Source: Ulota crispa
Lineage: Eukaryota > Streptophyta > Bryopsida > Orthotrichales > Orthotrichaceae
Assembly (NCBI GenBank): GCA_963920765.1
Contig: OY987244.1
Coordinates: 13,146,501-13,210,500 of the forward strand
Reading direction: 5' to 3'
DNA: 64,000 bases
A program made the translations under genes and the position numbers. Below are positions 8,906 through 56,845 of the stretch, piece after piece. The notes under the pieces are model-generated. The model worked only from the letters and a program-made list of their open reading frames with translations, was not told the origin of the DNA and made no database searches. Position 1 is the stretch's first letter. Each line of letters begins with the position of its first letter.

Positions 8906-9545
8906 CTTGAGGCACCACATTTTGGTGTCTACAATTCTTTGAAGTTCAATAAAACCTAACTAAGTTGCTATTTTTAGTATTTAATATTTTAGAGTTATTA
9001 TTTTTGAAGGCTAGTTTTAACATCAAAAACTCGATTCTGAAAATTATTGATTTTGAATTTTCTATTCAAGATTTTGTGCAAGGGTGTTCAGTGCAATCTT
9101 GACTTTTTGTAGTGTTGAGAGCTCTTGGAAATGAGCCCCAAATACATTAGATCTTGGAGAAAAATCTAAACTAAAAATTCATTTTCAAAAAATGTAGAAG
9201 AGATTTTGAAATGCTGTAAATTGATTGGAGTTTTGTATGTTATGTCCCTTAACCTCATATTTTTTTGGTGACCAACTTTTTACGTTTGACATGTGAAAAG
9301 AGGGTGGAAAGACTTCAAGTCATTTTTGCAATTTTAACACCCTCATGATCAAACATAATAATCTTTTGATCCATTAGTGATATTGGTGTGTTTTCTTTTC
9401 CTATGTGAACTATGACATATCTAGTTTGACTTTGTACGGTTATAATTTGAAATAAATTAAATTGAATTATCAAAATATTGGATTTTTTTTGTTCAATTTT
9501 GAGCAAACTCCTAGAAGCTCAAAAACAACCTCAAGCATTCACGGG
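8906..9545 (+). mobile_element. TTAA element, family B, copy 1 (worn left end)
   Basis: Shares the whole interior with the other family B copies: GAGGCACCACATTTTGGTGT, GTTCAATAAAACCTAACTAA, GTGCAAGGGTG near the middle and CTAGAAGCTCAAAAAC near the right end. The right end is followed by intact TTAA (9546-9549); the left flank is decayed to ATAA. About 640 bp, no ORF. Confidence 0.7.
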
Positions 9546-9621
9546 TTAATTGTGGAAATTGCCATTTTATTTGTGAATCATCTTATTCACCAGGAACCTA
9601 CCACGTTGAAAGACAACAATA

Positions 9622-9808
9622 GGGGGTTTCAAATATCTCAAAAAAACAATGAACAAATGGTTGAGAATAAGTTTTTGTTCACCGATGAATATGTTGTCAT
9701 GACCTCAAGAGGTTGTCATGGCTCGTTCATGGAGTGACTTTGCTGGGTTATTCACTAATTTCATTCGCGTGAACAAAATTGGTGGTGAACGGCATATTTG
9801 AAACCCCC
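9622..9808. mobile_element. Small MITE with GGGGGTTTCAAATAT ends
   Basis: Inverted ends GGGGGTTTCAAATAT (left) and ATATTTGAAACCCCC (right) bound about 187 bp, each next to a TA dinucleotide. This fits a TA-duplicating (Tc1/mariner or Stowaway-like) MITE. It was seen once, so the boundaries rest on the inverted repeat only. Confidence 0.55.
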
Positions 9809-10135
9809 TAATACATGAAGACAATCGATACAAATTTTTGATGCTTGCATCAATTAGTAAAAAAATTGCCTACGGTTTACACAAATTTTCTCTAATTTGA
9901 AACGAGATGATGGTATTAATTTACTCGTTCTAACAAGTACCAAAGACTCCTAATCGCAATGCTATTAGGTACCTTGCTTATACTACGGGCAGTTATAAAC
10001 TTTATTTTGCTCATGGATGCAAGGTGAATAGAGGTGCTGATCCAACCATAGGATCTCGTACGAGAGTAGATTAAGGACATGTGGAAGATATTTCAAAAAC
10101 CTTGTGAACATGGATTGCAAGATACTTGTACTTAA

Positions 10136-11057
10136 CCCCCTAAAGGACCGAGCCATTTTTTCAGTGACAAAGACTGAAAACTGCCACTTTTGGAGGAATG
10201 AGAGGAACTGTATTCATTTTATTTTATTTTGAAATCCAACCATAGGATCTTGCTCTAGACAACATGAGGTATTTGGGAAAAAAAATTGAGCTTATTCCAA
10301 ATGACAAGGAGTGAGATTTTTACAAATGAAATGAAGGAATTTTTTTTTTTTCATACTGCCCAAAAATTTCAAAAGCCGTTGATCACTCCTATATCAAAAA
10401 AATTGCTCTATGCAAAGTTGAGGTTTTTTTCCCCATGTAGTAGACCAAGTTAGGAATGTGTGGGAGAATTTTCAAATCAATTGGAACTATACAACACATG
10501 GGAAACATTAGTAAGTAAAAAGAAGTCGAGAATGGGTCAAAACACTAAATTATTAAGAATTTAATTATTGAAATGAAAAATGAAAACCCCAACGGTTATA
10601 ATGTTGTAATAAACAATCCTTTGGTTTATTTATTTTTTCAAAATATTGAAAATTGAGTAAAATAAAGGACTTCAAAGTTTATTTTAGAGTAGAGAATCCA
10701 TAATTGCCCGCAAACAAAAACTCCTTATAACTTTCATGTCATTGATTGAAATTGAATGATTCAAAACTTCTCATGTATGAAAAAATCTAAAGAACCAATT
10801 TCAAAATTTTATTTTAAAAATATGTAAATTTTAAAGAAGTTTTTGGTCAGCCCAAAAGGACAACCCTCCCCAAAATTTCAGAAAACATGCATAACTTCTT
10901 CAATAAATGTCAGAATGAAGAAAAAATTTGATGCCCACCTAGATCTTTGAATTCCTTATCTCCCATAAAAGTTTCAGAGAATTACATCTAGTAGTCTACT
11001 CATAGGTACATGACCAAAACCCAAATGGTCCCCAAAGGGACAACGGTCCTTTAGGGG
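10136..11057 (+). mobile_element. TTAA element, family A, copy 1 (piggyBac-like MITE)
   Basis: Flanked by TTAA at 10132-10135 and 11058-11061. The ends are CCCCCTAAAGGACC and GGTCCTTTAGGGG (inverted). Family A interior markers are CATTTTTTCAGTGA, AAATCCAACCATAGGATCTT, GTGTGGGAGAATTTTCAAAT and CCCCAAAGGGACAACGGTCC. About 922 bp and no transposase, so a non-autonomous element. TTAA duplication plus CCC-starting ends is the piggyBac pattern. Confidence 0.85.
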
Positions 11058-12136: not shown

Positions 12137-12573
12137 ATACAAAGACCAAGGAGCCCACTTTGGGCTTGCATTTTTTGTGTAAATACTTGAGATAAGAGTA
12201 TGAAAACAAGGGTATATGTGCCCATTTTGAAAAGCTTGCATTCCTCCCCAAAAAAATAGGATTGAATAGTTTTTGAGTGAGATGTGGTATCATATGTGAT
12301 TTAGGTGTCAACATGGGCATCCCTAAGAAAAGCCAAAACAAAGAGATTAGGAAGGGGTTTGCCCACACAGTGTGCAAAACTACTTTACAATTGCTTAGTC
12401 AATGGGCAAAATTTCCAATCAACTCTCCTTAACTACGTAATAACTTGTTGAGTTGTTATGAGACACTTGGGATTGGGATAGTTAAGTGCCTTTATAGGAG
12501 CACATCCAAGCAATTTCAATGTTAGTCTAGAGTTGCTAATAAGGACTCTATGAGCTGCAACTTTGCCCTTTAA

Positions 12574-13299
12574 CCCCTAAATCCCTGAGTGTCCCTTTGG
12601 GGGACAAATGAGATTTTGGGCAGGTACCTATGACTAAACTACTTTGTGTGATTTTTTGAAACTTTTATGGAGGATGGGGAATTTGAAGATCCATGTACAC
12701 ATCTAATTTTTTTTCATTTTGACATTTTTTGAGGAAGTAAAAAATGAATTTCTGATTTTTTTTGGAGATGGGGCAGTCTGGGCAGCCCAAAAACTTTTTT
12801 AAAACTTACATTTTTTTGAAATAAAAATCCAAAATTGGTTTTTTGAGTTTATATATACATAGGAAGCTTTGAATCACTCGTTTCCAATAAATGAAATGAA
12901 AGTTATGAAGACTTTTAGTTAATTGGTAGATATGGCTCCATATCTACCAATTAACTAAAAGTCCTTGTAACTTTTATTTCATTTATTGGAAACGAGTGAT
13001 TCAAAGCTTCCTATGTATATATAAACTCAAAAAACCAATTTTGGATTTTTATTTCAAAAAAATGTAAGTTTTAAAAAAGTTTTTGGGCTGCCCGGACTGC
13101 CCCATCTCCAAAAAAATCAGAAATTCATTTTTTACTTCCTCAAAAAATGTCAAAATGAAAAAAAAATTAGATGTGTACATGGATCTTCAAATTCCCCATC
13201 CTCCATAAAAGTTTCAAAAAATCACACAAATTAGTTTAGTCATAGGTACCTGCCCAAAATCTCATTTGTCCCTCAAGGAGACACACAGGGATTTAGGGA
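12574..13299. mobile_element. Foldback TTAA element: full-length palindrome derived from family A
   Basis: Flanked by TTAA (12570-12573 and 13300-13303). The whole 726 bp is one near-perfect palindrome. Each arm of about 360 bp reads inward from CCCTAAATCCCTG through GACAAATGAGATTTTGGGCA and CATAGGAAGCTTTGAATCAC to a centre at about 12937 (GATATGGCTCCATATC), with almost no loop. Each arm matches the right-hand part of family A, so this element is two inverted right halves with the left half lost. Confidence 0.85.
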
Positions 13300-13687
13300 T
13301 TAATATAAAATAGTTTACAATATGTTTTCCCACAAAAATCACGTTCCATGATATCAGCTTGTTGAAAAGCTAGGTATCCTTGCAGATTTTTCCTAGAATT
13401 TTCCGAAACCCTGAGGTGCCCCAAACCCTTAAACGGTCGAGTATGGGTTTGTCTACCTTAGCATGGATTTCACTTGATGCAAGGGCTTTTGATAAGCATT
13501 GTAAAGACAGTTTTGACATGAATGGGTCTTTTTACAATATCCAAGAACGCAAAAATTCACACAAATTTACTTCAACTCAACTCTAGAACTATGGTAGGTA
13601 GCTCAAATTGCAACCCCTTTCATGTAAAGCACCTCATAGGTAGCTCAGAAATAGTTATGAGGTGGTCCTTGAATGGATCCTCTTTAA

Positions 13688-14328
13688 CCCTTAAATGCCC
13701 AAGCAACCAAAGTTGGGTCTTTACAAAACTTTGAAGATAAATAAAACTTTATCAAAACACTATTTCCAATACCTTTTTTTATATAAGTATATTTTGAAGT
13801 TTCTTTTCAACATCAAAAATATGATTTTGAAAATAAAAGTTGATGATTTTTCTACTCAAGCTTTTGTACAAGGATGTCCATTACAATCTTGAGTTTTCTA
13901 GTGTTGGAATATCTTGAAAATAAGCCTCAAATACACAACAACTTGGAGAAAAATCCACATTAGAAATCCTTTTAAAATATGTATAAGAGTAAATTTTTGA
14001 AAGTCATAAATTGATTATAGTTAAGTATGTAAAAACCTTAAACCTCATATTTTTTTGGTGACCAACTTTTTAGATTTGACATGTGAAATAAGGATTAGAA
14101 GATTGCAAGTCCCCTGTGCAGTTTTAATACCCTCATGTTCAAACATTATCTTTCAAACTATAAGTGACGTTGTTGTGTTTTCTTTTTCCATGTAATCTCT
14201 AACATGTTTAGTCTGAATTTGTACGGTTATAATTGAAATTTTTTTAATGAAATTTATGAAAAAGTTGGTTGATTGTTCAGTTTCATGGAAATTCCAAGAA
14301 GCTTAGAAAGGCCTTGGGCATTTAAGGG
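13688..14328 (+). mobile_element. TTAA element, family B, copy 2
   Basis: TTAA at 13684-13687 and 14329-14332. The ends are CCCTTAAATGCCCAAG and CTTGGGCATTTAAGGG. The interior is shared with the other B copies (TTTGTACAAGGATGTCCATT region, TTTTTTGGTGACCAACTTTT). 641 bp, non-coding. Confidence 0.85.
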
Positions 14329-14628
14329 TTAATCATAAAGAAAAAGGTGTATTTTGTTGCAAGAGTTAATCATATTCATTGATTTTGCCTCATCTCTTTA
14401 CAAGTTGAAGGGGAACGGTTTATTGGAAATCTAGAGTCACGAATAGGTGTCTACTACAAAAAACTTTGAAAATTCATTACTGACTCATTAATGCTTCAAA
14501 AAACGTGAAAAAATTTGTGTTTTATTTGGCACCTATTTTTGTTTGTCTAAAACTTAGACAAAAATCTTCTAGTCTCAAAATGCTCATGAGAAGGTAGATC
14601 AACCCTAAAGGTGTCTCTTTTTGAGTTA

Positions 14629-15398: not shown

Positions 15399-15879
15399 TT
15401 AAGATGTTTTGGAATAGCATTCATGTTGAAATTTCACTTTGATTGGTTTTTCTCTTGTGTAGGATGACAAACTTTTAAGATGAAATAATGGCACCATGTT
15501 GATAGATTTTCAAATACTACAATTATTCTACTATTGTATAGAGAAACAATACAAGTGTATTTCTTAAGCAATTTGAATTTTTTTGGGATTGCACAATTAA
15601 AATGTGCCATTCTTCTTGGATGTTTGATATATTTTGTTGTTGCTTTGATCCATCTTTGACCAAATATGGATACGTATTTTGAGGCCGTGTTGTATAAACA
15701 CCATTATTTCTGAATTCATAAACTTGATTCCATTGTTCTTTTTTAGGTTGGATGCAAAAAATTTGTGATCACAAGCGTTCTTCAAGACTGATTTCCAAAT
15801 TATTGAGTGATTTTACTATATACACTAGAAACCACTCTCTCGAACCAAAATATGGTTTGGTGGTCTCTAAAAGGTTAAA

Positions 15880-16845
15880 CATAATTGACAATTTGTGCCA
15901 TGTACCGCACTCACAAAAAATAGGGTCGGGTATGGGTGTATTGACCTCAAACATAATTGACAATCTGTGCCATGTAGTGCACTCACAAGAAAAGAGTCAA
16001 GTATGGGTGTACTGACCTTAACCCCTAAATGCCCAAGGCACCACATTTTGGTGCCAACAACAATTTGAAGTTCAATAAAAACCTAACTAAGTTGCTATTT
16101 TTAGTATTTTGTTTTATAGAGTTCTTCTTTTTGAAGTATAGTTTAAGCATCAAAAACCTGATTCTAAAAATTATTAATTTTGAAATTTCTATTCAAGATT
16201 TTGTGCAAGGGTATCCATTGCAATCTTGACTTTTTTAGTGTTGAGAGTTCATGAAAATGAGTTTCAAGTACACTAGATCTTGGAGAAAAATTCACACTAA
16301 AAATTTATTTTAAAAATTTGTAAAAGCGATTTTGAAAAGCCATAAATGGATTGGAGTTATGTATGTTATGTCCTTTAACCTTGTATTTTTTTGGTGACCA
16401 ACATTTTAGATTTGACATGTGAAAAGAGGATTGAAAGACTTGAAGTCATTTTTGCAATTTTAACACCCTCTTGATCAAACATCCTAATCTTTCAATCCAT
16501 AAGCATTATTGTTGTGTTTTATTTTTCTATGTGATGTCTGACATATCTAGTTTGAATTTGTACAATTAAAGTTTAAAAAAAATTGATACAATTTATCAAA
16601 ATATTGGCTTTTTGTTCAATTTAAAACAAATTCCTAGAAGCTCAAAAAAGACCTTGGGCATTTAGGGGTTAAACATAGTAGACAATCCGTGCCATGTACT
16701 GCACTCACAAGAAAAGGGCCTGGTGTGAGTGTATCGATCGACCTCAAACATAAGAGACAATCCGTGGCACTCACAAGAAAAGGGCCAGGTGTAAGTGTAT
16801 CGACCTCAAACACAAAAGACAATCCGTGGCCGTGCCATGTAAGGT
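15880..16845 (+). repeat. Tandem array (about 60-72 bp units) split by a TTAA element
   Basis: About five units with the core GACAATCYGTGCCATGTA, then CACTCACAAGAAAAG and GTGTAT-GACCTCAAACATA. Two units lie before and three after the family B element at 16022-16668. Units differ by substitutions and small deletions. No gene is seen. The array acts as an internal empty-site control for the insertion. Confidence 0.8.
16022..16668 (+). mobile_element. TTAA element, family B, copy 3, inside a tandem repeat
   Basis: TTAA at 16018-16021 and 16669-16672. The ends CCCCTAAATGCCCAAGG and CCTTGGGCATTTAGGGG are a perfect 17-bp inverted repeat. 647 bp. Removing it with one TTAA restores a tandem-repeat unit (GACC-TTAA-ACATA, where other units read GACC-TCAA-ACATA). 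Confidence 0.9.
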
Positions 16846-17278: not shown

Positions 17279-17388
17279 ATGGGGGATTAGTGGTTGCTCG
17301 GATTTAGAGCTAGGACATCTAATAATGAATACTGTAGGTTGATAGCAGATTCGGCATAAAATAATTCTCCAAAAATTTGCCTAATTTT

Positions 17389-18321
17389 CCCCTAAAGGAC
17401 TGAACCATTTTTTCAATGAAAACAACTCAAAACCGCCACTTTTGGGGGGGTTAGTAAGAAGGTAATTTTTTTAAATTTTTTTTTGGGAAATCCAACCATA
17501 AGATCTTGCCCTAGACTAGATTAGGTACTTGTGGAAAAAAAATCAGGTCATTCCAAATGGACATGAGTAAGATATTTACATCTAAAGTGAAAAGAAAAGA
17601 TTTTTTTCATGCTGTCCCAAAATTTCAGAAGCCTTTGACCACTCTTATAACAAAAAAGTTGCTCTACGCAACTTTGAACTTTATTTTTCCCATGTAGGAG
17701 ATCAAGTTAGGTATGTGTGGGAGAATTTTCAAATCAACTGGAACTATACAACACATGGAAAAAAATAGTAAGTAAAAAGAAGTAGAGAATGAGTCAAAAC
17801 ACTAAATTGTTAAGAATTTAATTATGGAAATGAAAAATGCTAATCCCAATGGTGATAATGTTGTGATAAACAATCTACTTCCTTAGGTTTAATTATTTTT
17901 CAAAAATAATGAAAATTGAGTAAAATAAAGGACTTCAAAGTTTATTTTAGAGTAGAGAATCCATAACTGCCCGCAAACAAAGACTCCTCATAACTTTCAT
18001 GTCATTGATTGAAATTGAATGATTCAAAGCTTCTCACCTAAGAAAAATTTTAAAGAACCAATTTCAAATTTTAATTTTTTTATAAAAAAAAATTAAAGAA
18101 GTTTTTGGGTTGCCCAAACGGGTAATCCTCCCCAAATTTTCAGAAATTATTGCGTAGCTTCTTCAATAATTGTCAGAATGAGGAGAAAATTAGATGCCCA
18201 CATAGATCTTTGAATTCCCCACCTTCAATAAAAGTTTCAAAAAATCATAGAAAGTAGCTTATCCAAAGGTACATGCCCAAACTCCCACTTGTCCCCCAAA
18301 GGGACAATAGTCCTTTAGGGG
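17389..18321 (+). mobile_element. TTAA element, family A, copy 2
   Basis: The ends are CCCCTAAAGGACTGA and AGTCCTTTAGGGG, with full family A interior. It is very close to copy 4 at 32624-33548: both read GATTCAAAGCTTCTCACCTA. The flanks are TTTT and TTAT instead of TTAA. Similar sequence (TTATTCTCCAAAAATG) occurs on both sides, so the boundaries may have been rearranged. Confidence 0.75.
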
Positions 18322-19090
18322 TTATTCAATAAATTATTCTCCAAAAATGCCCAATGTCAAACAAATCAAAAACTGAAATGCCAAATTTTATAAAAGTCAT
18401 TAAGCTTAACTAACAATGGAAGGTCAAGGTTGATTCCAAGAGGGCTCAATCTACTGCAAATTTCTTACCAACGATTAATTTTAGAAAGTGGAAGATGCTT
18501 AGAAAAAAGCTTAATTTTACTAATTTTTTTGATTGAATGCCAAATAATAACAAAAAGTGCCTAATCTTGTTTAATTGTAAAATCTGATGCCAAATTGATT
18601 TTGTTAATAATCAATTCGGCAAGGAGCAGCCGAATCTGCTCCCCACCTACAGTATCACTGTTCGGATCGGATCAGTGGTTACCGAGTTGGGAATGAAGAA
18701 AACCCTTAGTAAGGTTTCTAAAAGGTCTCCACTAAACCCACTGTAACTAAGTTATGTCTCTCCATTTGCTACTCGCTCATCGGCTAAGAGATGCTTTCAG
18801 GAAAGACCCAAGGAAGATTTAACAAATCCCACGTATTTCATAGATAGTAAACAAGGAACATTGCTGATACCTTGAAGCACATGAACCCAAGCAGAATACA
18901 AAGCTCTTCAGCCTTGGCAAACATTGCCTTGCCCACTTGATTTGTCGTTTGATCGTCAATGGTGTAGTACTGTATAGCATTGGATGCGTGCACTTTCCGC
19001 AAATTTTGAAATTCAAGGAAGGGGGATAGCAATGTGTGGAGTTTCATTTTCCAAAACTACGTTCATGCATGAGAATGTCTTCCGCACCAT
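18322..19090. other. Unassigned spacer
   Basis: AT-rich sequence containing several copies of a GCCAAAT word and, at 18700-19080, a slightly richer stretch. No coding or element boundary could be supported. Confidence 0.3.
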
Positions 19091-20032: not shown

Positions 20033-20479
20033 TAATGTATTTCAAAGTAAAAGAACTTAGCTAAAAGCAATTCAAGTCATCAAAGTGTACTAAGCTTCTT
20101 TTTTTAAGAATTAAAGTAAAGGTGAAAACAAAAGCTAGTGATTCTTTGTATTCACCACTATATTTTCATTTCTATTATGTTGCTTTTATTTTTATTACCG
20201 TATTCCTATTTTTTACTCTCTTCTTTTCATATGTTTTTGAAAATAGTAAATTTTTAATTTTTACTTTGTGTATCAAGCTAGTATAAAATAAAATTGACTC
20301 CTATGCAATTTTATGTTTAAGATTCATTTACAAGGCATTGTTTTCTTCAAATTTCTATTGAGCTTGTTATATATTATGTAGATGTTCATTCTTTTTTATT
20401 CCATCACTTTATGTGCAAGATATTTAAGTAAGATATGTAACTATTAATAATTATTCTATAGAATGATGTATTATCTTAA

Positions 20480-21434
20480 CCCCTAAACCAAAAATGTTTG
20501 TTCAACAATTGGTTGAAAGTTTGGGTAGGTTCATATGAAGTCGTTTTTTGGCGGACGTTTCTGAAATTGGAGACAAGGTGCATACAATGAACACCTTTGT
20601 GTGAAAAACAAAAAAAAAAAATAACCATTTATCAAATGTTGGACTAAAAAGTTATGGTGCCCAAAAGAATTTGGGCAATTTGGGCATCTTTGCAGAATCT
20701 TATGCTAAAACTCTCATCAACTTCTGAAACTTGGCGTGGATGTAACTAACAAAATATGGTGTACAATTGTCAAAAAAAATCAAAAAATAAAAAAACTTGC
20801 AAATCACATTCTAAGAGGAGTCAAACTTTGTTAACTATGTCTAGGCAATTTCAAGATAAAATAGTCGGTTCTTCTAACTTTAAGCCCTATTATCTTGCAA
20901 TCCATAAACTCAAAGTTCTTGAATTTATTTTTCATATTCTAAGTGTTTGTCTCTAACTTTTCCAAATTTAGATTTCAAATAAAAGACTTCCTCATTGCAC
21001 AAGTTATCATGAAAAAATGACTAGTGTATTGCCAATTCACTTAACCTCTTTGCATTGCAAGGTGATTTAGAATAAGCTAGATTCTATATTTGCTTTTGAA
21101 ATTCTTCATGAATAAACCTAACATCATACACTTGTGAGTGGTCAAAAACCTTGTTTTTGTGTAGAGCAAAAATTTTACTTTAGGAGGGCTTGAAGTTTGC
21201 TAACCTCGTTTTGCAAGAATGAAATAAGGTTGTTTTTCTCACTTCAAACATTATAACCTTACAAATTATAGTCTATGCGGTCGATTGGGCTGAGTTTTTT
21301 TCACACATTGCCTTACTTGTATATTACACTTTTGTATGGTTGAAACTTAAAAAATAAATAAAAATAAATAAATGATCCAATAATGGCAATTTTGGTCTTA
21401 TTTTCCTCTTGCAACACCCTTCGGGTTTTAGGGG
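20480..21434 (+). mobile_element. TTAA element, family C
   Basis: TTAA at 20476-20479 and 21435-21438. The ends are CCCCTAAACCAAAAATG and CGGGTTTTAGGGG. 955 bp. The interior is unlike families A and B but has the same outer eight bases, so it belongs to the same TTAA group. No transposase was seen. Confidence 0.8.
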
Positions 21435-21844
21435 TTAATACAAATATTCTTATAATGTTTGCAAAAAAGTTGATCTGTAAAAAACTAAATGAACATGTTG
21501 TAATGTAATCATGGCTTCTTAGTTCTGAAGAAAATGAAGGCTACTTCTTGGCTGAGTTGCTTCTCTTTCGATAAAATAGGTTGCTTCACTTAGCTTTATT
21601 TCAGTTCCTTCACGGTGATTAGTGAACAACCTCTAAGTTTTTCTAATGCATTTGAAAGTTGTATATTTTACAATAATTTACAATAATTTACAAATCATGT
21701 TTTTCACTGATGTGCTTTCTTTTCACTTTTGGTGAATTGTGTTATTTTATGGTGCTACTAATAGATTTTTTTTATTGTGCCAACCACTTACTATATATGA
21801 GTATGTTGACCATTTGGGGGAGGGGCTGGGAAACTAATAAGTAA

Positions 21845-22330: not shown

Positions 22331-22902
22331 GCACCTAGGTTTGCCATTTAAGCTATGCATGGCATTTCAGTGTATATGATCCTCTCACCACATAAGGCTA
22401 CTACACAAGTTATTTTGATTAGTCTAAGTCAAGCTGATAATGAAAACTCTTACTAATTCTGGAAGTATAACCCCATTGAATCCAGCCAATAAGACTTAGT
22501 ATTGCATAATTTTGCTATCCGTATACACTCATCACACCCCCTGTCAATGGTGAGCAGAAATAGGTGAATAATTCTAGAAAGGACGAAATAAATGTAAACC
22601 CAGAGTCCTCTTCAGCACCTCTTGGCAACCCTCTCACGAGTCCACTTTTTCACTAATGTTCTTCAAACAATTGTGATTTTTTAAGCTACCAAATGTTTTG
22701 TGTTTAATAAAAGATCGCAAAGCATATTATAAATGTAGAAAGTTACCAATAAATTCATGAGTGATATATCATGTATGCAAAAAATATTTCATTCTTATAC
22801 AGTCATAAATTTTGGTATAAAAGAAAAAAACAAACACTACTATTTTCATAAAGTATCTTCAGGACTCCCATTGTATCTAAAAGCTCTATACCCTTTACTT
22901 AA
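22331..22902. other. Unassigned spacer
   Basis: AT-rich sequence with no element boundaries or coding signal. Confidence 0.35.
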
Positions 22903-23547
22903 CCCCTAAATGCCCAAGGCATCACATTTTGGTGCCGACAATACTTTGAAGTTCAATAAAACCTAACTAAGCTGTTATTTTTAGTATTTTGTAATTTAGA
23001 ATTATTTTTTGAAGTCTAGTTTTAGCATTAAAAACCCAAATTTGAAAATTATTGATTGTGAATTTTCTAGTTTAGATTTTGTGCAAGGGTGTCCACTGCA
23101 ATCTTGACTTTTCTAGTATTGAGAACTCATGAAAATGAGCCTCAAATACACTAGATCTTGGAGAAAAATTCACAAATAGAAATTTATTTTAAAAAAATGT
23201 AGAGGAGATTTTGAAAAGTAGTAAATTTATTAGAGTTATGGATGTTATATCCTTTGACCTCATATTTTTCATGTGACTGTTTTTTTAGATTTGACATGTG
23301 AAATGAGGATTGAAAGACCTGATGTTATTTTTGCAGTTTTAACACCCTCTTGATCAAACATTATAATCTTTCAATCCATAAGCAAAATTGTTGTGTTTTC
23401 TTTTCCTATGTGATATCTAACATATCTAATTTGAATTTGTACGGTTAAAATTTAAAAAAAATTGATACAACTTATCAAAATGTTGGATTTTTTTTCAGTT
23501 TAGAGCAAATTCCTAGAAGTTCAAAAAAAGCCTCGGGCATTTAGGGG
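22903..23547 (+). mobile_element. TTAA element, family B, copy 4
   Basis: TTAA at 22899-22902 and 23548-23551. The ends are CCCCTAAATGCCCAAGG and CCTCGGGCATTTAGGGG. 645 bp with the standard family B interior. Confidence 0.88.
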
Positions 23548-23789
23548 TTAATAAAGACTAAGCCTATAAAGATAGAGTTCCACTCAAATCTCTCACTATG
23601 TAAGTTTCATTTTGCTACTCTGTACAATAATCTTTATTTATGTTTTACTCACAAATTTTCATGTCTTTTACAAGTTGTAAACTACTTATGTTTTTTTGTG
23701 AATATTTGAAAGTAATTATGAACTATGAAAAAATTAGAAGAGAATTCATGTGAAATACCATTGTGCTTAAAAATTTAATTGTTTCACCA

Positions 23790-23994: not shown

Positions 23995-25118
23995 AAAAAT
24001 ATACTACATCGTGAAAAACATTGGGGAGTAAAACCAAATTTTTGTATCATATTGTATTTAAAAACGTAGTTTTAGTCTTTCAACTTTATATAGCAATAAA
24101 AAACTTGGCTTTCAATTGTTTTCCAAAATTCTTAAGCAAAATAGAAACTAGACTTGGAAAGCTTCATTAAATTATTGTTTTAAAAGAATTCCAAAATCAA
24201 AAATTTGGAACATCAAAATTAGGTAACAAAATCAAATAGTCAAAAATTTCAAAAAACGCTAAACAATTGTATTGTTCTTTTGGTAAAATATTCCCTGTGC
24301 AATTACAAAGGTGGTTCTTTCTTTGTCCCATATCTCAATTCCCATTAAAACCTCATAATTTGATTGGTTGAAAGCTACTCCATCTGTGCCTCTAAAAAGC
24401 GTCCAAATCAAACACATTTCTTATACCACTCAAGAGCTCCCCTTTGCTAATTTCAAATGCTGATAAAGCATTTGCCATGTTCAATGACCTCATGGAGGAA
24501 AATTAAGTAATTAGGGAGCATTCCTCTACTAGCAAGCTTGGTATTGTTCATATGAGGTACCACTATTGCTACTAATCTTTAAATCATCAATAATAAGTTG
24601 GCAATGTGCACAAATATGGTACTTTTTGCATGGAATATGGTTGCCTAGACATCGGTATCAAAGTTGGAGATTTTGCATACATTTGGTAGATGGTACATTG
24701 ATACTAGAATACATGTGTCACTAGCACAAAAACTAAAAATAGAGTTAATCCTCCTTTTGGACGCTATTAGGAAAACTGAGGGAGCATTAAACATGGTGAA
24801 AATAGTATCTATTCTAAGAAATTCAAAAAATCTTGAACATACTTTGTACTTGATATGAATTTTCTTCATTTTTTCCTTAAGAACTCACAATGATTTTGAA
24901 AAAATTCCAAGAACTTACAAATTTTATGGCTCGTAGTAGACATATGATTGTCCTTTGAAATTACCTCCTAAGTGCTCAATCAACCATTTTCTGGTTGCTA
25001 CCCTTTTTGTAGGCTGCCCGAGATGAAAAAAGCTTTAAAAATAAATTAAATAAATACTTTTAAACATAAAAGCAAGTCTACTTTCCAACCCAACTTGAAT
25101 TATGTTAGTCAAAGTTAA
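23995..25118. other. Unassigned AT-rich spacer
   Basis: No gene. Overlapping open frames at 24645-24869 on both strands show no recognisable motif and are taken as chance. Confidence 0.35.
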
Positions 25119-26053
25119 CCCCTAAAGGTCCAGCTCTCCCCCAAGGGGACAGTTGAGACTTTGGGCATGTACCTATAGCTAATCTAGTTTTTGTAATTTT
25201 TTTAAACTTTTATTGAAGGTGGGGAATTCCAAGACCTACACGGGAATCTAATTTTTTTGTCATTTTGACATTTGACGAAGAAGATATGCAAGAATTTTTG
25301 CTGCTTGAGGGAGGGAGGGCAATCCGGGCAGCCCAAAAACTACTTAAAATTTTGTATTTTCTGAAAATAGAAATCTGAAATTTGTTCTTTAGATTTTTTT
25401 ATATGTGGGAAGCTTTGAATCATTCAACTTCATTCGATGAGATGAAAGTTATGAGATGTTTTAGTTTGTGGGCAGTTATGGATTCTCTACTCTAAAATAA
25501 ACTTTGAAGTCCTTTATTTTCCACAATTTTCATTATTTTGGAAAAAAAACTAAACCTAAGGAAGTAGATTGTTTATCACAACATTATAACCGTTGGGATT
25601 TTCATTTTTTCATTTTAATAATTAAATTCTTAACAATTTAGTGATTTGACTCATTCTCTACTTCTTTTTACTTACTACTTTTCCCCCATGTGTTGTATAG
25701 TTCCAATTGATTTGAAAATTCTCCCACACATACCTAAATTGGTCTTCTACATGGAAAAAATAAACCTCAACTTTGTGTAGAGCAATTTTTTTCATGTAAG
25801 AGTGGTCAAATGCTTCTGAATTTTTTGGAGAGCACTGAAAAAAAACTTTCATTTTCACTTCAGATGTAAATATCTCCCTCCTCTCCATCTAGAATGACTT
25901 GATTTTTTCGTACAAGTACCTCTTCTAGTCTAAGGCAAGATCCTATGGTTGGATTTGCAAAACAAACTTTATTTCCTACTTTTCTACTCATTCCCCCCAA
26001 AGTGGCAGTTAACAGTGACTTTCACTGGAGAAAAGTGCTTGGGCCTTTAGGGG
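25119..26053 (-). mobile_element. TTAA element, family A, copy 3 (inverted)
   Basis: TTAA at 25115-25118 and 26054-26057. The ends are CCCCTAAAGGTCCAG and GGGCCTTTAGGGG. The interior is the reverse complement of copies 1, 2, 4 and 5 (for example TATAGTTCCAATTGATTTGA). 935 bp, non-coding. Confidence 0.88.
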
Positions 26054-26748
26054 TTAAATTCCACAAAGGAGAATTTTTCAAAAACAATCACTTCAATATT
26101 TGTTAGTGTTATAACATTTATTATTTTGGGAAACTAATGATGTTCTCTCCTTTAAAAAGACTGCGTTTTTGAATTTTGGGATAGAATGTCTATTTTCAAC
26201 CAATCATACCCAATTTTAAATTTTATGAATAAAACTTGTAATTTTGGTGAATATTAAATGTTAAATGCTTCTAAGTTCATTAAATAAAAATTCAATTTTT
26301 TTTGAGTGTTTGACCCTATGGATAATTACTAAACATCATGATTCTTATTTTCTCTTCTAAAAAAACTTCATCAAAGTAACAAATGTATCATTTTATAGCA
26401 CATCTATATTTCACCTTTACCCCTTGGACCTTTAGGGGTTTAATATAGTTTTTTTCATTTTCTGTCCGTAGTTTGAAAATGGCATCAAGCAGAGTACTAG
26501 ATAGCAAAGCTTAAAACTAGTGGTCATAGGCCTGTCCTTTAACCTTATAATATTGCTGCAAACACGGTATGTTTCGTGTGGACTTGTGCAAGATGCATGA
26601 CTTTGCCCATTGATGCCCATCGATTTGTTGATTGCATCACACCATACATCATGTGTTCGTAGTAATAACGTACAAGCACATCCTTTGATTGCCAGACATT
26701 TGCAACCACTTGCTATGAATAATTTCTAAAATTACAGGAGGGCATCTC
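26054..26748. other. Spacer with one isolated TTAA-element end
   Basis: A single CCTTTAGGGG end followed by TTTAA occurs near 26428-26443, with no matching partner identified. The rest is AT-rich and has no coding signal. Confidence 0.35.
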
Positions 26749-27618: not shown

Positions 27619-27651
27619 CTTCAAGGTTCAAATTTTGTAAGTTCAACTTAA

Positions 27652-28563
27652 CCCCTAAAAGACCAAGGAGCCCACTTTGGGCTTTATGAGAACTTAGGCA
27701 GGCTCTATTGACTTCATAATTTGGAAAAATTTCATGAAATTTTTAGGATGGATGCTACTCATCATAATCTACATGTGAAGCTTTATTTCATGTCATTCTA
27801 AAGAGTAATGCAAAAGTTATAAGGTTTTCTTAATTTCAATGTCAAACCGGGCAGCAAAAAATATATTCTAAATATTTAATTCATTTATTTATAGAATTGT
27901 ATAGATTGATACCTACTCAAAAAAAATGGAATCTCTCAATTCCAAATAATGAGGTAAGAGTTAAAAGGAGTTTTATTTTGCGGGCAATGAAGGTAGGAAG
28001 ACAGTAGAAAAAGCATATAAAGTTATCTTTTACTCTCAATTTTGAAAATTTTCAAATGAAAATGAAAATGAAAGTTACTAATTGTCTATTAGAGCATTCT
28101 CACCATTAGGATTAACAATTTTCAATTTCTTCCAAAACTTATTAGCGTATTAGTTATATTTTTCATTCATCAATACCTTTCACTTTACAATTTTTGTAAA
28201 AATGAATCCAAATTTTTTTGGTTAATTTTTTATATATGCTTTCAACCCATTTTCCAACATATTGCCAAAATTGCACAAGAAATTCAATATACATGTTTTT
28301 CTCTAAAAAGTTTGAAAAACTATTTCACATTCTAGAAGGACTAGAAAAGCCTACATTAATTTTTTAAGTTTAGATACATTAATCTTGCAATTGATGGGGA
28401 TATTCATTCTCAAATTTTGGGACAATGTACACGTGCAAGTCAACCAAAAGATCCTATGGTTGGATTTGTTAAAAAGTAAGTTTCAATGAAGATTTTGACC
28501 TTACTTTGAGGACTAGTATTTTGAAGTAGTTTTGGGCCTCTAAACATGAAAAAAAATTAGGGG
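27652..28563 (-). mobile_element. TTAA element, family E (diverged relative of A)
   Basis: TTAA at 27648-27651 and 28564-28567. The left end is CCCCTAAAAGACCAAGGAGC and the right end AAAAAAAATTAGGGG. Near the right end AAAAGATCCTATGGTTGGAT is the inverse of the family A marker at its left end. So E is an inverted, diverged family A relative. 912 bp. Confidence 0.75.
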
Positions 28564-28886
28564 TTAATTGAATTAGGGACTGAATATACCACAATATCTG
28601 ACAACTTTCCAACATGCACCATAGAATACGGTAGTAAGTTTAGTTTTTTTCAGATAGAGTTTACAAAAAGAGAAAAAAACACCAATTCATCTTACTCGTT
28701 TCAAGAAAGCACCTAATTGAAGATAGCCAAAATGCTAGAATGCCAACCGGTTGTTCAACTCACCAAGTCTGTCCTCAGTCACAGTACATGAAGAAAGCCA
28801 TCAATTCTTGATTGATAAGGTATAGCTCTTTAGATCTTGCCATGTATTTTGTATCCTTGTATTATTTGCAATTCTCCCAAACAATT

Positions 28887-39839: not shown

Positions 39840-41122
39840 TTATGCTGGGACATGCAGCTAATAGCATGTATGTTTGCAATTCTGGTTTACAAAGCTTGGT
39901 CCTTCTAGTTGTACTGCACCTTGTTGCTCTAGTCACTCATCTTTTTTATCACTCTCTTTGTATGCTTGTTCCTTTTGTGACGAAAATGCACGAATTGACA
40001 AATTTTATTCAACTCTTGGTTGCAGTCCGTGAGGAACTCTTGGCCACGTTGACAGTTTCATCTACGGAGATACAACACCGAGGTTGACTTGACGTGAGGT
40101 ATGCTATTGAATTATAGAGCATGTGACGTTGTATTTGAATGAACTGAAATAGTTTCAGTTGTGTTGAGCAAACAGGTCCAACAGAGAAGGAATGCTGATA
40201 TTCTATGATGCATCCTGCTCTCAACCACGTTCGTATCCTTTGAAGTCTTGTCAATTCACATCCAATATAGTAGGTGCTCTTTTGTTATTGGAAAAGGGGA
40301 AAAGATGAACTGAGCTCTTCGTTTGGAAGAGGTTTAACCCTTAAAGGACCCATCCAGCTACTATGATATACTATGTACGATGTTGTAGAACTAGCATTTG
40401 CTATCAACAAATTTTTTTAAATTAGAACTTATTCATTAAAATGAGAGATTGGGGACCTCTCAAAATAATTATGTTGTTCTTGATTTAAATCAACAATTTT
40501 CATTAAAATGAGAGTTTCGAGCTGAATTGACATAAAACCTTTCAATTTTAGGTAAAAAATGAACGGTTTTATCTCAATTTAACTCAATCGAATTAAATTA
40601 ACATAAAACCTTTCGTTGAGTTTTCTTTAAATTACCTTTCATTTCAATGGAAAACTCTCATATTAATGAATATGGTGTTTAATTTAGGATCTGGACTATC
40701 TCACTAGAACAACATTGATTTATATTCTAACTTCATTGTTGATCTCAAATGTAATAAAGGTATGGATGCACTCCTAACACAAGAAAAATATCTTGTATAG
40801 TGTTGGTTGCAAAGGGTTGCTCGGTTGTTAGAGGTTAAGCTCAGAAGTTAAGTAAATAGAAATAGCTCTTTGAGATAAGTTGGAATCATTTTGAGGCTCA
40901 ATTTGAAATTGTGTTTTTGTGAAAAATATTTGCACTAGTTTTGTATGCAAAATAAAAGCAACTACCATAACTTTTATACAAAGTAAAAGTGAACACAAAG
41001 TAAAAGCGATAACAAATAATTTGTATATAAGTAAGAAACATATGTCAATTACATGTTGAATCAATTGTATAGTATTGGAACTGATAAATTTCAAAAATCT
41101 TTGTAGATTGGTGGTTGTCAAG
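39840..41122 (+). repeat. Inverted duplicate of the protease-gene upstream region
   Basis: Matches 3972-4890 in reverse complement. Examples are the GGTTGCAG / GAACTCTTGGCCACGTTGAC junction, GGAAAAGGGGAAAAGATGAA, and the A-rich stretch with TTTGTATGCAAAATAAAAG. The copy is longer by the 497-bp insertion at 40338-40834. The open frame (39797-40087) keeps the same peptide (STEIQHRG to stop) as the other locus. Confidence 0.8.
40338..40834 (+). mobile_element. TTAA insertion in the duplicated upstream region
   Basis: TTAA at 40334-40337 and 40835-40838. The left end CCCTTAAAGGACCCATCC is family A-like; the right end GTTGTTAGAGG is worn. The paralogous locus has the uninterrupted site (AGCTTAAACCTCTTCC, TTAA at 4261-4264), which proves insertion of 497 bp with TTAA duplication after the locus was copied. 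Inside, near 40662, is CATATTAATGAATATGGTGT, akin to the MITE ends at 31846. Confidence 0.85.
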
Positions 41123-42592: not shown

Positions 42593-42929
42593 AATGAAAT
42601 TGTTTCAAGGGTGTGGCCAGCCTCAATCATGACATTTACACTTGGTGCATATGCAATGGCAAGAACTTGATCATACCATCAGAATAGTACTGCTACTTTG
42701 TTTTTTATCCACCTCCAAAGCACTTCCTCAAGTTCTTGGCAAAACATCCAATGCTCCAGTACCAAAATATATCATACTAGTATGCAAAAAAGTGAATTCA
42801 AGACAATCATGATTTATTGGGTCAACCACATTAACCCTCTGCCATCCCAAGAGTCCTTCACATTGTCCATTGTAAGGAGAGTCCATGAATATACTGTCTC
42901 CAATGGCAATATCCACAGAGCTAACCATC

Positions 42930-44600: not shown

Positions 44601-46038
44601 CCTCATTAGGAGGAGAATGAGGGTACGGGAAGACTGCTTGTTCTCATTGGAAGTTCCCATGGATTGCATGCAAGGTCGTACAACATGGCTAGAATCAAGA
44701 AGGGTTGTGCCAACAGTTCTCCCGCGCACTCTAGCATTGTTCTTGAGCGCACTTTACCTTTGTTCTCGCGTGCATTGTGGGTCTTGCGCACCCTATCTCT
44801 CACAAATATTTGATTTTAAGTCTGGCTATGCAAATTAGGGTTTGAAAGATTTGGTTGAGATTATTGATTTTACTCTACAAGTTAGAGCAAACATCATAAT
44901 TTAGCTCTTTTGTGTGTTTTCAGTCTAGTTATGGGACACTTTTAATCCAAGGAGGCGCTCGAGTTTGACATTAAAGCTGTCATTGTTGACAAAAGGTGAT
45001 TCTTTTTTGGACACTCTCAATTCACCACATCTCCATTAGAAGAGCTTGCCAGAGAGCTTCCAATCACTGAATTTGGTTTGCCAGGGGTCCGATTTGGGCA
45101 TTTGCTTGGGCTTGGCATTTTTGTGCTTAAATATTGTGTTTGCAATTTGCAGGTCTTTACGGTTGGTGTGCAATGATTTGGAATTGCTACATTATTAGGG
45201 AAGAAAGAAATAAAGAATGAGTATGCTGTGTTGAGTTTTGCGAGGTTTTTTAAGGTTTGGAGTGGAGAGTGAGGTGGTATGGTTTTTGTTTGTGGTGGAG
45301 TAGGTGGGAGGCAAAGATCCGAAGGCAAGGCTTGAGAAGATAAAGAAGCAAGATCAAAGGGCATCTGGTTGATACCCTCTCCAAGTATGTGTGGCTCCAG
45401 CCATGAATTTCAAATGTTTGAGCGGCTATTTACTATCATCAAAAAGTCTTAGTTTGGGATCTCAACTTCTTTGTTAATCCCAAATGTAGTAAAAGTGTGG
45501 GCCCATTCCAAATCTAAACATTTTGGGGGTTAAGATATTTGGCCAATAGGGTTTAGAGCTTTTGTAGACGTTATTTGAATTAATCATTTATATCAGTAAC
45601 AACATTCTTGTTATTTGCATTAGGATCGTATGGGTTACTTTATATGCCAGAGTACTAGTTGCTTTGTGGACCTTACCATGTCAATATTTGCAATTTGGAT
45701 TTTTGCTTTGGTTAATGTTAACATACTTTGCAAGAAATCTTATGACTATATTTATTCTTCTTGTATTTAGGTCCTTTGTAGACAAGTATCAATTGAAGAG
45801 GGTGACGCTAAAGCAAAGGAATTTGGAGTTACGTTTATTGAGACAAGTTAAAAAGCAAGTTTCAACATCTTGATATGGGTGTTGATTTGTCTACCTGTGC
45901 TGAATAATTTGAATTAGTCTTTCATTGTCTATGCATCCGGAGGAAACGTCAACAGCTGTTGATTTACTAGAATTGCGTATTTTGGTGGAACTGAAGTGTG
46001 CTTTAAGTTGGTTTTTCTAGTTGTCACTAAGAGGTTAA
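44601..46038. other. Unassigned DNA beyond the palindrome
   Basis: Moderate base composition to about 45400, with long frames on the minus strand (45017-45364) that show no known motif. A lone TTAA-element-like right end (TTTTGGGGGTTAAG) occurs at 45527-45540 without a partner. No gene is supported. Confidence 0.3.
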
Positions 46039-46681
46039 CTCCTCAATGCCCAAGGGGCGTTTATTTCACCCCTGTAGATTTCATTTGGGGATGCCCAAAG
46101 TTTCTTTGATATTTTTTTAGTGGTTATTGTTATATTTAAATTCTCATTGAAGTTTAGTTTTAGCATCAAGAGTCTAATCTTGAAAATGAATTAACATGAT
46201 TTGTCTATTCCAAGTTTTGTGCAAGGGTGTCCATTGCAAATCTTCACTTTCTAGTATTAAAGGCTCTTGGAAATGAGCCTCAAGTACACTAGAACTTGGA
46301 GAAAAAATCACCTTAAAAATTCATTTAAAAAAATTGTAGAAAGATTTTGAGAAGCCGTAAATTGATTGGGGTTATGCGTGTTATACTTTACGTACTCATA
46401 TTTTTTTGGTACCCTTAGTTTTAGGTTTGAGATGCAAAAAGAGGATTGAAAGATTTCAAATCACTTTCACTGTTTTAACACCCTCATGATCAAACTTTAT
46501 AATCTTTCAATCCATAAGTGATATAGTTGTGATTTCTTTTCCTATGTGATCTATAACATGTCTACCTTGAATTTTTATGGTTACGTTTCAAAAAAGATTG
46601 ATAAGATTGATCAAAATGCTGGCATTTGTTCACTTTCAAGAAAATTCTAAGATACTCCAAAATTCCAGGGGCGTTGAGGGG
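46039..46681 (+). mobile_element. TTAA element, family B, copy 5
   Basis: TTAA at 46035-46038 and 46682-46685. The ends are CTCCTCAATGCCCAAGG and GGGGCGTTGAGGGG. The interior matches family B (GTGCAAGGGTGTCCATTGCA). 643 bp. Confidence 0.85.
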
Positions 46682-46685
46682 TTAA

Positions 46686-50322: not shown

Positions 50323-50325
50323 TTG

Positions 50326-53216: not shown

Positions 53217-53707
53217 ACACATTATAATCGGCTTTTATTAGGTTTGAGTAATATTAGCTAATTATTTTGTAGTTTGTGACATCCAATTTTGTTCCAACCC
53301 TAATCAAAGTCAACATACATTGGTTTACAATATTTTGTTTTTAAAAAGAAATTACATATACTATAAATTGACCTACAAAGGAGGAACCATTGGGTAAACA
53401 ATATTAATACTTTGATGTGGTCAAAGCACTTTTATATTTGGCTACATCATTCAATCATGCAAGAATTATTGCTTTATACAAAGCATCTCAAAAATGCATT
53501 TGATTAAGATCAATTGATAAAGTTATTTGAACAAATTGTGGATTACCACTTGATAGTTTTTTGACTATTTTATATGAAGATAATAGTGCTTGTGTTGCAC
53601 AAATGAAATGAAAGTGTGTTTACTACAAGTGATGAAATTAAATATAATGATCTAAAATATTTCAGTTCTATCCATGACTTGATTATAGAGCAAGCACTTG
53701 AAGTTAA

Positions 53708-53949
53708 CCCCTGAGCGCTCCACAGCCCCAAATATCGCCTCTCACAATTGCAAAAGTTCCATGTTTGACTGTTATAATCTTTTCATCAAGAAAGACAATT
53801 CATGTGTCCTTTTTTCCTGTACTTCTGGGCCTATGTCCCCTTCCAATCAATATGACTAGATTTCATGGATCTCATTTGTCATGATAGATTAGTTGGATTG
53901 AGTATGACTAGATCTGCATTTTGGTGAATATGGCATGAGCGCTCAGGGG
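53708..53949. mobile_element. TTAA element, family D (short)
   Basis: TTAA at 53704-53707 and 53950-53953. The ends CCCCTGAGCGCTC and GAGCGCTCAGGGG are a perfect 13-bp inverted repeat. 242 bp. The interior is unlike families A-C. Confidence 0.85.
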
Positions 53950-54753
53950 TTAAGAGAGTTATACCAGCACATAATCTTGCAAAAATTTTCATCAAGGCTC
54001 TTCCATCATGTACTCATCATCAACTTATTCATGGCATTTGAATGCTGCAATTCAATACTTTGAAACAAGAGATTCAATAGATTTTTATTATAAAATTGTA
54101 GGAACCTTTGCTATCATTCCATGGATTTTTTTTCATTAAGTTTTACCGTGTCAATGGATTGTCAAAGGTGTTGTACTTTTTTAATTTCCTTCATTTGTGG
54201 TTTCTTCCTCAACCATAATCAAGGTTTTCATGGATAAGGTTTTAGTGAGGCAATAATTGTATATCTTACAACATTACAAAAATGATCATTATTTAGACTC
54301 TCATACAAATATTGTATTGAGCGCGGAGTATTGAGATAAGTATTATATTAACCCCTGAAGGCCGAAGCCCTTTTTTTTGTGAAAGTCACTGAAAACTACC
54401 ACTTTGGGGGGAATGAGTAGAAAAGTAGGAAATAAAGTTTGTTTTGCAAATCCAATTGTAGAATCTTGCCTTAGACTAGAAGAGGTACTTGTGGGAAAAG
54501 AATCAGGTCATTCTAGATGGAGAGGAGGGAGATATTTACATCTGAAGTGAATAAAAAGGTTTTTTCCTGTGCTATCCAATAAACTCAAAGCCTTTGACCA
54601 CTCTTACATGAAAAAAAATTGCTCTACACAAAGTTGAGGTTTATTTTTTCCATGTAGAAGACCAAGTTAGGTATGTGTGGGAGAATTTTCAAATCAATTG
54701 GAACTATACAACTCATGGGAAAGAAATAGTAAGAAAAAAGAAGTAGAGAATGA

Positions 54754-55373
54754 CTCTCGGGGAGGTCACTCCATGTATATTTTGAGTACCCCGTGCAGCA
54801 AGGGTTTTTTTTTTGAGGGGGGGGCTATTTATCTCGTAGGCAAGAATTAAAGGATCCCTATAACTACTTATAATTGACAAAATGGCTTATTTAATGGAAC
54901 TCTATCATCACTTATACTTTCTAGTTTGATGCAATTTATTCTAGGCTATATTCTTTATAAAGAAAAACCTAGAATTGAAAAACAAGTAGAAAGGAGAAAA
55001 ATTAGACAAAGAAGTACACAACCCTTTTTTTCTTCCTAAAGCCTTGAAGCTACCCATTTTAATATGAAGAAATTGGGCATTTAATTGCCAAAAAAATAAA
55101 ACATTTCATCCAAGTGTGCATCCAACGGTACACACATGCTAAATTAAATTTAGTCTAGAGGATCCAATACATGAAAGACTAAATTATATGTGCAAAATAC
55201 TAATGACCCACATTTGAAGGCTACTTAAATTACTTATAAATGATTTTTGGCTATTAATGGACTGTCTCTATCTTATTTTTAAGCTTTTTATGAATTTTAT
55301 CCAAAAAGAATAAAAGGCTATCTATATTCTTTTGCACACTGTTTCTAAAATGCTGTAAGTTACCTCCCTGAGG
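54754..55373. mobile_element. 620-bp MITE with 5-bp duplication AATGA
   Basis: Ends CTCTCGGGGAGGTCACT and, inverted, CCTCAGGGAGGTAACT. Flanked by AATGA at 54749-54753 and 55374-55378. The other family A copies read GAGAATGAGTCAAA without interruption, so boundaries and the 5-bp duplication are certain. The superfamily is not obvious. Confidence 0.8.
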
Positions 55374-55684
55374 AATGAGTCAAATCACTAAATTGTTAAG
55401 AATTTAATTATTGAAATGAAAAATGCAAATCCCAACGGTTATAATGTTGTAATAAACCATCTACTTCTTGAGGTTTAATTTTTTTCCAAAATATTGAAAA
55501 TTGTGGAAAATAAAGGGCTTCAAAGCTTATTTTAGAGTAGACGATCTGTAAGTGCCTGCAAACTAATACATCTCATAACTTTCATCTCGTTGACTGAAAT
55601 TGAATGATTCAAAGCTTCACATGTATATGAAAAAATCTAAAGAACCAATTTTTTTTTTTAATTTTAAAAAAATACAATTTTTAA

Positions 55685-56615
55685 CTTGTAAAGGCCCAAC
55701 TGTCCCCTTGGGAGAAAAGTGGATTTTGGGCATGTACCTATAGCAAAACTATTTTGTGTGATTTCTTGAAACTTTTATTGAAGGTAGGGAAGTCCAAGTC
55801 CTTTGCGGGTATCTAATTTTTTCTTCATTTTGACATTTGACAAAGAAGTTATGCAAGAATTTCTACAACCCAAGGGAGGGAGGGCAATCTGGGCAGCCCA
55901 AAAACTTCTTTAAAAGTTATATTTTTTAAAATAAAAATCTGAAATTGGTTCTTTAGATTTTTTTACATGTGGGAAGCTTTGAATCATTCCATTTCAATCA
56001 ATGAGATGAAAGTTATGAGATATTTTAGTTTGTGGGCAGTTATGGATCCTCTACTCTGAAATAAACTTTGAAGTCCTTTATTTTCCACTATTATCAATAT
56101 TTTGGAAAAAAAACTAAACCTAAGGAAGTAGATTGTTTATTATAACATTATAACCATTGGGATTTGCATTTTTCATTTTGATAATTAAATTCTTAACAAT
56201 TTAGTGATTTGACTCATTCTCTACTTCTCTTTACTTACTATTTCTTTCCCATGAGTTTTTTAGTTCCAATTGATTTGAAAATTCTCCCACACATACCTAA
56301 CTTGGTCTTCTACATGGAAAAAATAAACCTCAACTTTGTGTAGAGCAATTTTTTTTCATGTAAGAGTGGTCAAAGGCTTTGAGTTTATTGGATAGCACAG
56401 GAAAAAACCTTTTTATTCACTTCAGATGTAAATATCTCCCTCCTCTCCATCTAGAATGACCTGATTCTTTTCCCACAAGTACCTCTTCTAATCTAAGGCA
56501 AGATTCTACGGTTGGATTTGCAAAACAAACTTTATTTCCTACTTTTCTACTCATTCCCCCTAAAGTGGTAGTTTTTAGTGACTTCTACATAAAAAAGGGC
56601 TTGGGCCTTTAGAAG
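55685..56615 (-). mobile_element. TTAA element, family A, copy 7, nested in copy 6
   Basis: TTAA at 55681-55684 and 56616-56619. The ends are CTTGTAAAGGCCCAACTG and TTGGGCCTTTAGAAG. 931 bp in inverted orientation, inserted at the internal TTAA that is intact in copy 5 (AAATTTTAAGTAG, near 36060). Confidence 0.85.
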
Positions 56616-56845
56616 TTAAAGATGGGCCCCAATTGCCCTCCCTCCCTTGAGTTGCAGAAATTCTTGCATAACTTCTTTGTCAAATGTCAAAATGAAGAAA
56701 AAATTAGATGCCCGCAGGCGCATAGGTTTTGGATTTCCCCACCTTCTATAAAAGTTTCAAAAAATCACACATAATAGTTTAGCTATAGGTACATGCCCGA
56801 AATCCATTTGTCCCCCCGAGGGACAGTTGGGCCTTTAAGGGTTAA

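Follow-up and report, generated by a model that had tools for sequence, protein, structure and literature searches.

Non-autonomous piggyBac-type transposons in a probable moss genome and the transposase elements that likely mobilised them

The closest described relatives of the elements reported here are piggyBac of T. ni and piggyBat, with which they share a DDE_Tnp_1_7 transposase, three aspartates, CCC ends and a TTAA target that is duplicated on insertion. A CC[C/T]T-type end motif is given for piggyBac in two studies (PMC2872659, PMC12732532), and piggyBac excision is usually precise (PMC2872659). Corals contain comparable short elements, the CMITEs, which are TTAA-flanked, have CCC-type ends and are related to the piggyBac transposons with which they share a genome; they are about 100 bp long, with an estimated 737 copies for the most numerous family of one species, and include a family III whose ends, CCCCTCAGTGTCCG, resemble those found here (PMC2872659). 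The subject of this report is a 64,000-nucleotide stretch of a land-plant genome (C3:13146501-13210500, called the window throughout; the genome comprises 274.8 Mb in 157 contigs) in which we mapped 17 elements of this general type. Unlike the coral CMITEs, these are mostly 250-960 bp long and are represented by thousands of exact ends for each of two families, A and B. The system also departs from known piggyBac transposons in its land-plant host and in the long open frames that lie upstream of the transposase domain at three loci (L031, L033 and L037). Its transposase-bearing elements with end pairs measure 5,027 to 7,495 bp, whereas in beetles intact elements span 2,074-3,465 bp (PMC12732532).

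We consider it highly probable (roughly 0.93) that the window elements are non-autonomous piggyBac transposons, resembling miniature inverted-repeat transposable elements (MITEs), and that they were likely moved by piggyBac transposases encoded elsewhere in the genome. The observations behind this reading are the element ends, the TTAA flanks seen genome-wide, an empty target with a single site, transposase genes with three aspartates, and transposase loci that share both ends with family B and one end with family A. From what is known of piggyBac biology, the transposase would be expected to bind the short terminal repeats, to excise the element at its CCC ends and to insert it at TTAA, duplicating the TTAA. 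The transposases held to be the likely agents reside in CCC-ended elements, some 5 to 7.5 kb long, elsewhere in the genome; they would have mobilised the short copies, whose amplification probably came in several bursts.

A first-pass annotation, made from the letters of the window alone, had described at least fifteen TTAA-flanked elements in five families. Our mapping reproduced its counts for families A to E (seven A elements, with A7 nested in A6, one foldback, five B elements, and one each of C, D and E) and added a single F element; the TTAA flanks did not hold throughout, those of B1 and A2 being deviant, and B1 begins at 8892 and not at 8906. The elements occupy 13,824 bp, or 21.6% of the window bases, in line with the fifth that had been estimated. 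They are listed here with the empty site of B3; elements carry no strand assignment, apart from an orientation where one is stated.

8892..9549: B1, 658 bp; left flank ATAA, right flank TTAA
10132..11061: A1, 930 bp; TTAA on both sides, one additional C at the left end
12570..13303: foldback, 734 bp; a pair of 366-nt arms, inverted, 2 nt apart and 90% complementary; TTAA on both sides
13684..14332: B2, 649 bp; TTAA on both sides, terminal bases inverted at 16/16
15877..16011, plus strand: stretch of the tandem repeat that represents the B3 empty site; the 4-bp target, TCAA, is present once
16018..16672: B3, 655 bp; TTAA on both sides, terminal bases inverted at 16/16
17385..18325: A2, 941 bp; flanks TTTT and TTAT, the sole mapped element with TTAA on neither side
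20476..21438: C1, 963 bp; TTAA on both sides; L036:417-1342 holds another full-length copy (78%)
22899..23551: B4, 653 bp; TTAA on both sides
25115..26057, reverse orientation: A3, 943 bp; TTAA on both sides
27648..28567: D1, 920 bp; TTAA on both sides, terminal repeats matching poorly (7/16)
32620..33552: A4, 933 bp; TTAA on both sides
35353..36293: A5, 941 bp; TTAA on both sides
40334..40838: E1, 505 bp; TTAA on both sides, terminal repeats matching poorly (6/16)
46035..46685: B5, 651 bp; TTAA on both sides
53704..53953: F1, 250 bp; ends CCCCTGAGCGCTC, TTAA on both sides
54348..56845: A6 composite, 2498 bp; contains A7 plus some 0.6 kb of further sequence; TTAA on both sides
55681..56619, reverse orientation: A7, 939 bp; inserted in A6, TTAA on both sides

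TTAA adjoins 31 of the 34 mapped ends, the exceptions being the left side of B1 and both sides of A2, a fraction that is biased upward because the 12-base motif by which end candidates were chosen (up to 2 mismatches) itself includes TTAA. Short terminal inverted repeats starting with CC[C/T]T are present; A7 starts with CTT at both ends, and D1 and E1, with their poor repeats, are the least certain of the end pairs mapped. Small imperfect palindromes, such as GTCCCTTTGGGGAC or GGCACCACATTTTGGTGCC, occur just inside the terminal repeats of the A, B, D and foldback elements; the internal repeats of T. ni piggyBac occupy about the same place. Within A6, a stretch of about 0.6 kb (54757-55372) has no match to family A.

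The first-pass annotation had proposed a genome-wide search for the ends, and they proved abundant: TTAACCCCTAAA occurs 15,477 + 15,495 = 30,972 times, against 41 + 36 = 77 for the reversed control, and the looser motif TTAACCCYTVA occurs 60,285 times against 2,580 for its control. Because 24 of the looser motifs fall in the window, it is about 1.7 times denser in them than the genome average. Scaling from the window by this density ratio puts piggyBac-type elements at roughly 35 Mb, or about 13% of the genome, a figure that is an extrapolation out of a single window and not a measurement.

A view of the flanks that is free of the selection for TTAA comes from the inner ends of families A and B, counted genome-wide regardless of flank, as exact matches that favour young copies. 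The family B inner end, CCCCTAAATGCCCAAGG, has 2,520 occurrences (control 0), with an exact TTAA before 2,118 of them (84.0%); that of family A, CCCCTAAAGGMCCRAG, has 5,511 (control 0), with an exact TTAA at 4,626 (83.9%). On the assumption that all sites decay equally, an 84% share of intact 4-mers would correspond to about 4% change per base. Among 30 B ends fetched regardless of flank, some of them the two ends of one element, 26 adjoin TTAA, two TAAA, one GTAA and one TTGA; for three of the four one-base variants the partner end lies on TTAA, and no partner was found for the fourth.

The target itself can be seen at B3 (16018-16672), which interrupts a 72-bp tandem repeat (15877-16018). 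The B3 flanks, joined with one TTAA, align to 15877-16011 at 85% over 135 bp, gapless at the joint, and the target there reads TCAA once; a gapped alignment with the stretch that follows B3 (16671-16824) likewise shows TCAA. Because the empty site has the 4-bp target once, the inserted unit is the element plus one 4-bp copy, and this, together with the genome-wide flanks of A and B, upholds the TTAA duplication rule that had been proposed for the window. In all, 30 junction queries gave three joint-spanning matches, two of them these B3 alignments and the third at L070, which was dropped as a match within the same locus, at element ends. An empty site for the nested A7 is compatible with one TTAA and has gaps near the junction; B3 was used in its place.

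Transposase genes of the expected family are present in the genome. The Pfam profile DDE_Tnp_1_7 (PF13843) gave at least 120 match rows (best E 1.3e-73), a lower bound in that 116 of 528 candidates were scored; in a few cases one copy accounts for two rows. None of the rows listed falls inside the window, as the first-pass annotation had said, and the nearest ends about 12.6 kb upstream. We examined 20 copies in about 4 kb of surrounding sequence and 12 copies in a wider context, 22 distinct copies in total. A scan for the aspartate motifs in 23 loci (22 distinct copies), by motif only and with reading frames uncompared, found all three in L011, L012, L019 (which is the same copy as L030) and L025, and also in L013 with K after the first; the other loci lack at least one, and the open 476-aa frame of L031 has N at the third aspartate position. 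L030:4314-5480, on the minus strand, is a 389-aa open piggyBac frame and a candidate for a domesticated gene. In phmmer searches L033 and L031 align to the solved structures of piggyBat and T. ni piggyBac (PDB 6x67, 9c0f). The L036 frame closes, by eye, with a Cys/His-rich stretch, a possible counterpart of the C-terminal cysteine-rich domain of the piggyBac superfamily, and no Pfam model matched this tail. The long frames upstream of the transposase domain (L033:5302-6591, minus strand; L037:1994-3610, plus strand; L031:1929-2990, plus strand) may extend the transposase at its N-terminus; those of L031 and L037 look alike by eye, and a Pfam search with those of L033 and L037 gave no match.

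Family B is tied to such transposases at both ends. L033 (contig C5) and L034 (contig C4) share a transposase block (78% over 1,811 bp), outer-end blocks (77% over 670 bp and 68% over 303 bp) and an internal block that aligns in either orientation. In L033 the outer blocks stop at CCCCTAAATGCCTAAG and CCCCTAAATGCCTAAA, inverted at 15 of 16 bases and 5,746 bp apart, with TTAA on both sides; L034 spans 5,456 bp with CCCCTAAATGCCCAAG at both ends, TTAA on one side and TTGA on the other. The tips of both are of the CCCCTAAATGCCYAAG type, the ends of family B in the window. Thus the shared boundaries of this subfamily enclose a transposase and carry family B ends, which is the finding that the first-pass annotation had named as a check on its piggyBac interpretation.

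Family A is tied at one end. In each of the seven A elements, up to about 470 bp on the left side show homology to L036:5962-6437 (58-62% identity, E 5e-20 to 2.5e-12); this region lies 3' of a piggyBac transposase and terminates in TTAACCCCTAAAGGCCCAAG. L025 and L026 have an A-left-like stretch in the same orientation, 0.95 to 1.05 kb from the transposase match on its 3' side (1.15 to 1.25 kb in L036), and the 3' regions align along with the transposases (L025 with L026, 70% over 374 bp; L036 with L025, 59% over 424 bp). In 144 subterminal comparisons the match of A4-left with L036-right (z 7.8) was the sole standout besides a family C match since withdrawn, and values of z 3 to 4 were left unused. 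That withdrawn match (z 18) had tied family C to L036, and two CCCCTAAA ends had made L036 a 6,021-bp element; both proposals were given up because the transposase there has an entire C copy as its neighbour, at L036:417-1342. The right part of C resembles the A-left region at 58-62%.

End pairs were identified at five of the 12 widely examined loci. Besides L033 and L034, these are L009+L029 (5,027 bp, ends CCCCTCATCGCC and CCCTTCATTGCC, 12/16), with a second copy in L018 that is 90% identical over 4 kb and has the same right boundary; L037 (5,586 bp, CCCTTTA ends, 11/16), near whose left boundary an alignment with L031 begins, L031 having a similar right-end motif; and, as a candidate, L032, with CCCTTGCA ends 7,495 bp apart (12/16). 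No convincing end pair was seen at the other seven (L030, L031, L035, L036, L038, L039 and L040). Several piggyBac subfamilies thus coexist in this genome.

The features of the window have to be weighed against other transposons that use the same target. Kolobok and Sola3 also use TTAA, and TTAA alone cannot separate these superfamilies from piggyBac; families C to F, moreover, have no assigned transposase element, and our transposase search was aimed at the piggyBac model. That one of these two superfamilies built the window elements, with piggyBac present by coincidence, is nevertheless very improbable, for family B ends are found on two piggyBac elements that agree at both boundaries, and the A-left end stands on the 3' side of three piggyBac loci. 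Even less credible is a Tc1/mariner-like element for which TA, within a favoured TTAA, is the duplicated target; its end would then read ACCCC and not CCCC. The B3 empty site, with its one TTAA-like target, fits this proposal as well as piggyBac, and flanks alone cannot separate the two; it is therefore the transposase that decides, and the one enclosed by family B ends is piggyBac, while the whole TTAA is kept at 84% of ends although a user of TA has no need of the outer T and A. A number of observations do weigh against the non-autonomous piggyBac reading. A2 has TTAA on neither side despite being 95% like A4. Beyond the 16-bp repeat, B resembles L033 and L034 weakly (B3 with L034, 73% over 70 bp, E 1.9e-5). 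On the A side, the 5' end of the corresponding transposase element was not found in L036, L025 or L026, no 3' match was seen between L036 and L026, and A-like matches in other positions or orientations occur in L034, L035, L037 and L040 (among 31 loci, 22 distinct copies), where they look like separate insertions. Families C to F were linked to no transposase element of their own. Most transposase rows contain stops; the three-aspartate copy that alone is stop-free across its match, L019/L030, yet lacks a TTAA-CC end pair, none lying within 9.9 kb; and the absence of PF13843 matches from 14 control genomes, a cyanobacterium among them, is a weak control.

We give even odds to the proposal that the non-autonomous piggyBac transposons are only old, dead repeats of piggyBac origin, long immobile, with transposase genes that are all pseudogenes. 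Stops in 110 of the 120 transposase rows listed speak for it, as do the N at the third aspartate of the open L031 frame and a nearest-neighbour identity of 77-92% for 21 of the 22 B elements compared (17 distinct fetched elements and five from the window; the other has no partner over 80% of the shorter length). On the other side, 10 of the 120 listed rows are stop-free, L019/L030 keeps all three aspartates and has no stop in its match, and young B pairs would be missed because only 22 elements entered the comparison; judged from the genes as they read, transposase activity is possible. A2 and A4 lie 15.2 kb from each other; their overall identity is 95%, but they are near-identical over their central 500 or so bases and more divergent at their ends, a pattern that suggests gene conversion between neighbouring copies. 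We regard as rather unlikely the more ambitious proposal of a plant-resident piggyBac branch, with long elements and an extra N-terminal coding region, that has been a leading DNA transposon here through several bursts and has copies that are still mobile. If that proposal is true, this branch would supply a piggyBac transposase native to plants, with no earlier one known from the literature searched. A working native copy could serve as a plant genetic tool because piggyBac excision is usually precise.

The first-pass annotation had called the superfamily rarely reported from land plants. We found no description of a piggyBac transposase family in a land plant in the open-licence literature searched, which does not cover Repbase. 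As excerpted, a 2008 grapevine study puts at only five the cut-and-paste superfamilies then known from plants, without piggyBac (PMC2528002), a review from 2022 on the transposons of land plants gives the number as six and lacks the word piggyBac (PMC9033089), and a survey of switchgrass BAC (bacterial artificial chromosome) ends reports none (PMC3325252). Rare is not the same as never claimed, because a 2023 review lists PiggyBac among the superfamilies of angiosperm MITEs (PMC10004981); in addition, 1,230 PiggyBac fragments, making up 0.00% of the assembly, are tabulated for the fern Ceratopteris (PMC6890710). Statements that piggyBac has been identified in plants (PMC10140906), or is occasional in plants, e.g. 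red algae (PMC12732532), also count against novelty. The PiggyBac entries of plant repeat tables, in the parts available, have the superfamily name in common with the elements described here, but show no transposase or defined ends. What is new here is the host lineage, the scale and the long transposase elements; the superfamily is already known. A plant genome with more than 100 piggyBac transposase matches, and with an eighth of its DNA in such elements by extrapolation, alters the picture of plant superfamilies, and it makes testable the route of piggyBac into land plants and the reason for its success there.

The identity of the host was approached through its chlorophyll a/b-binding genes, which gave 56 match rows. 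The light-harvesting protein at L071 has as its best single-domain chains 8htu and 7xqp (429 bits), which we take to be LHCII chains of the moss Physcomitrium patens, followed by 1rwt (411 bits), presumably spinach LHCII; the entries assumed to be green algal score 381 bits or less. Summed scores are higher for 9vfj_2 and 9vfj_11, multi-domain chains whose single domains reach no more than 286 bits. Because L071 is closest to chains taken to be from moss, a land-plant host, as the first-pass annotation had assumed, is supported, and a moss is likely on this comparison. The data support a land-plant genome, likely that of a moss, with tens of thousands of piggyBac ends and more than 100 mostly damaged transposase copies.

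The plant telomere unit, CCCTAAA, is contained in the element ends. A link to telomeres or teloboxes, at which no search was aimed, was dropped because the extra C breaks the motif and because CCCT tips are usual in piggyBac (PMC12732532).

Several other features lie in the window. At 57139-58647 on the plus strand, an uninterrupted 502-aa frame encodes a splicing factor 1/branchpoint-binding protein with SF1-HH and KH domains. An open 466-aa frame at 2601-4001, on the minus strand, has no Pfam match, and shorter, broken-looking relatives of it occur at 41456-44481. In the surrounding stretch, 41334-44603, two 1,172-nt arms, 99% complementary, face each other across a 200-N gap (42930-43129) and hold pieces of the protein family of the 466-aa frame; it is either a real palindrome or an assembly fold. 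Short-period tandem arrays are found at 26871-27132 (about 22 nt) and 50312-50599 (about 10/21 nt).

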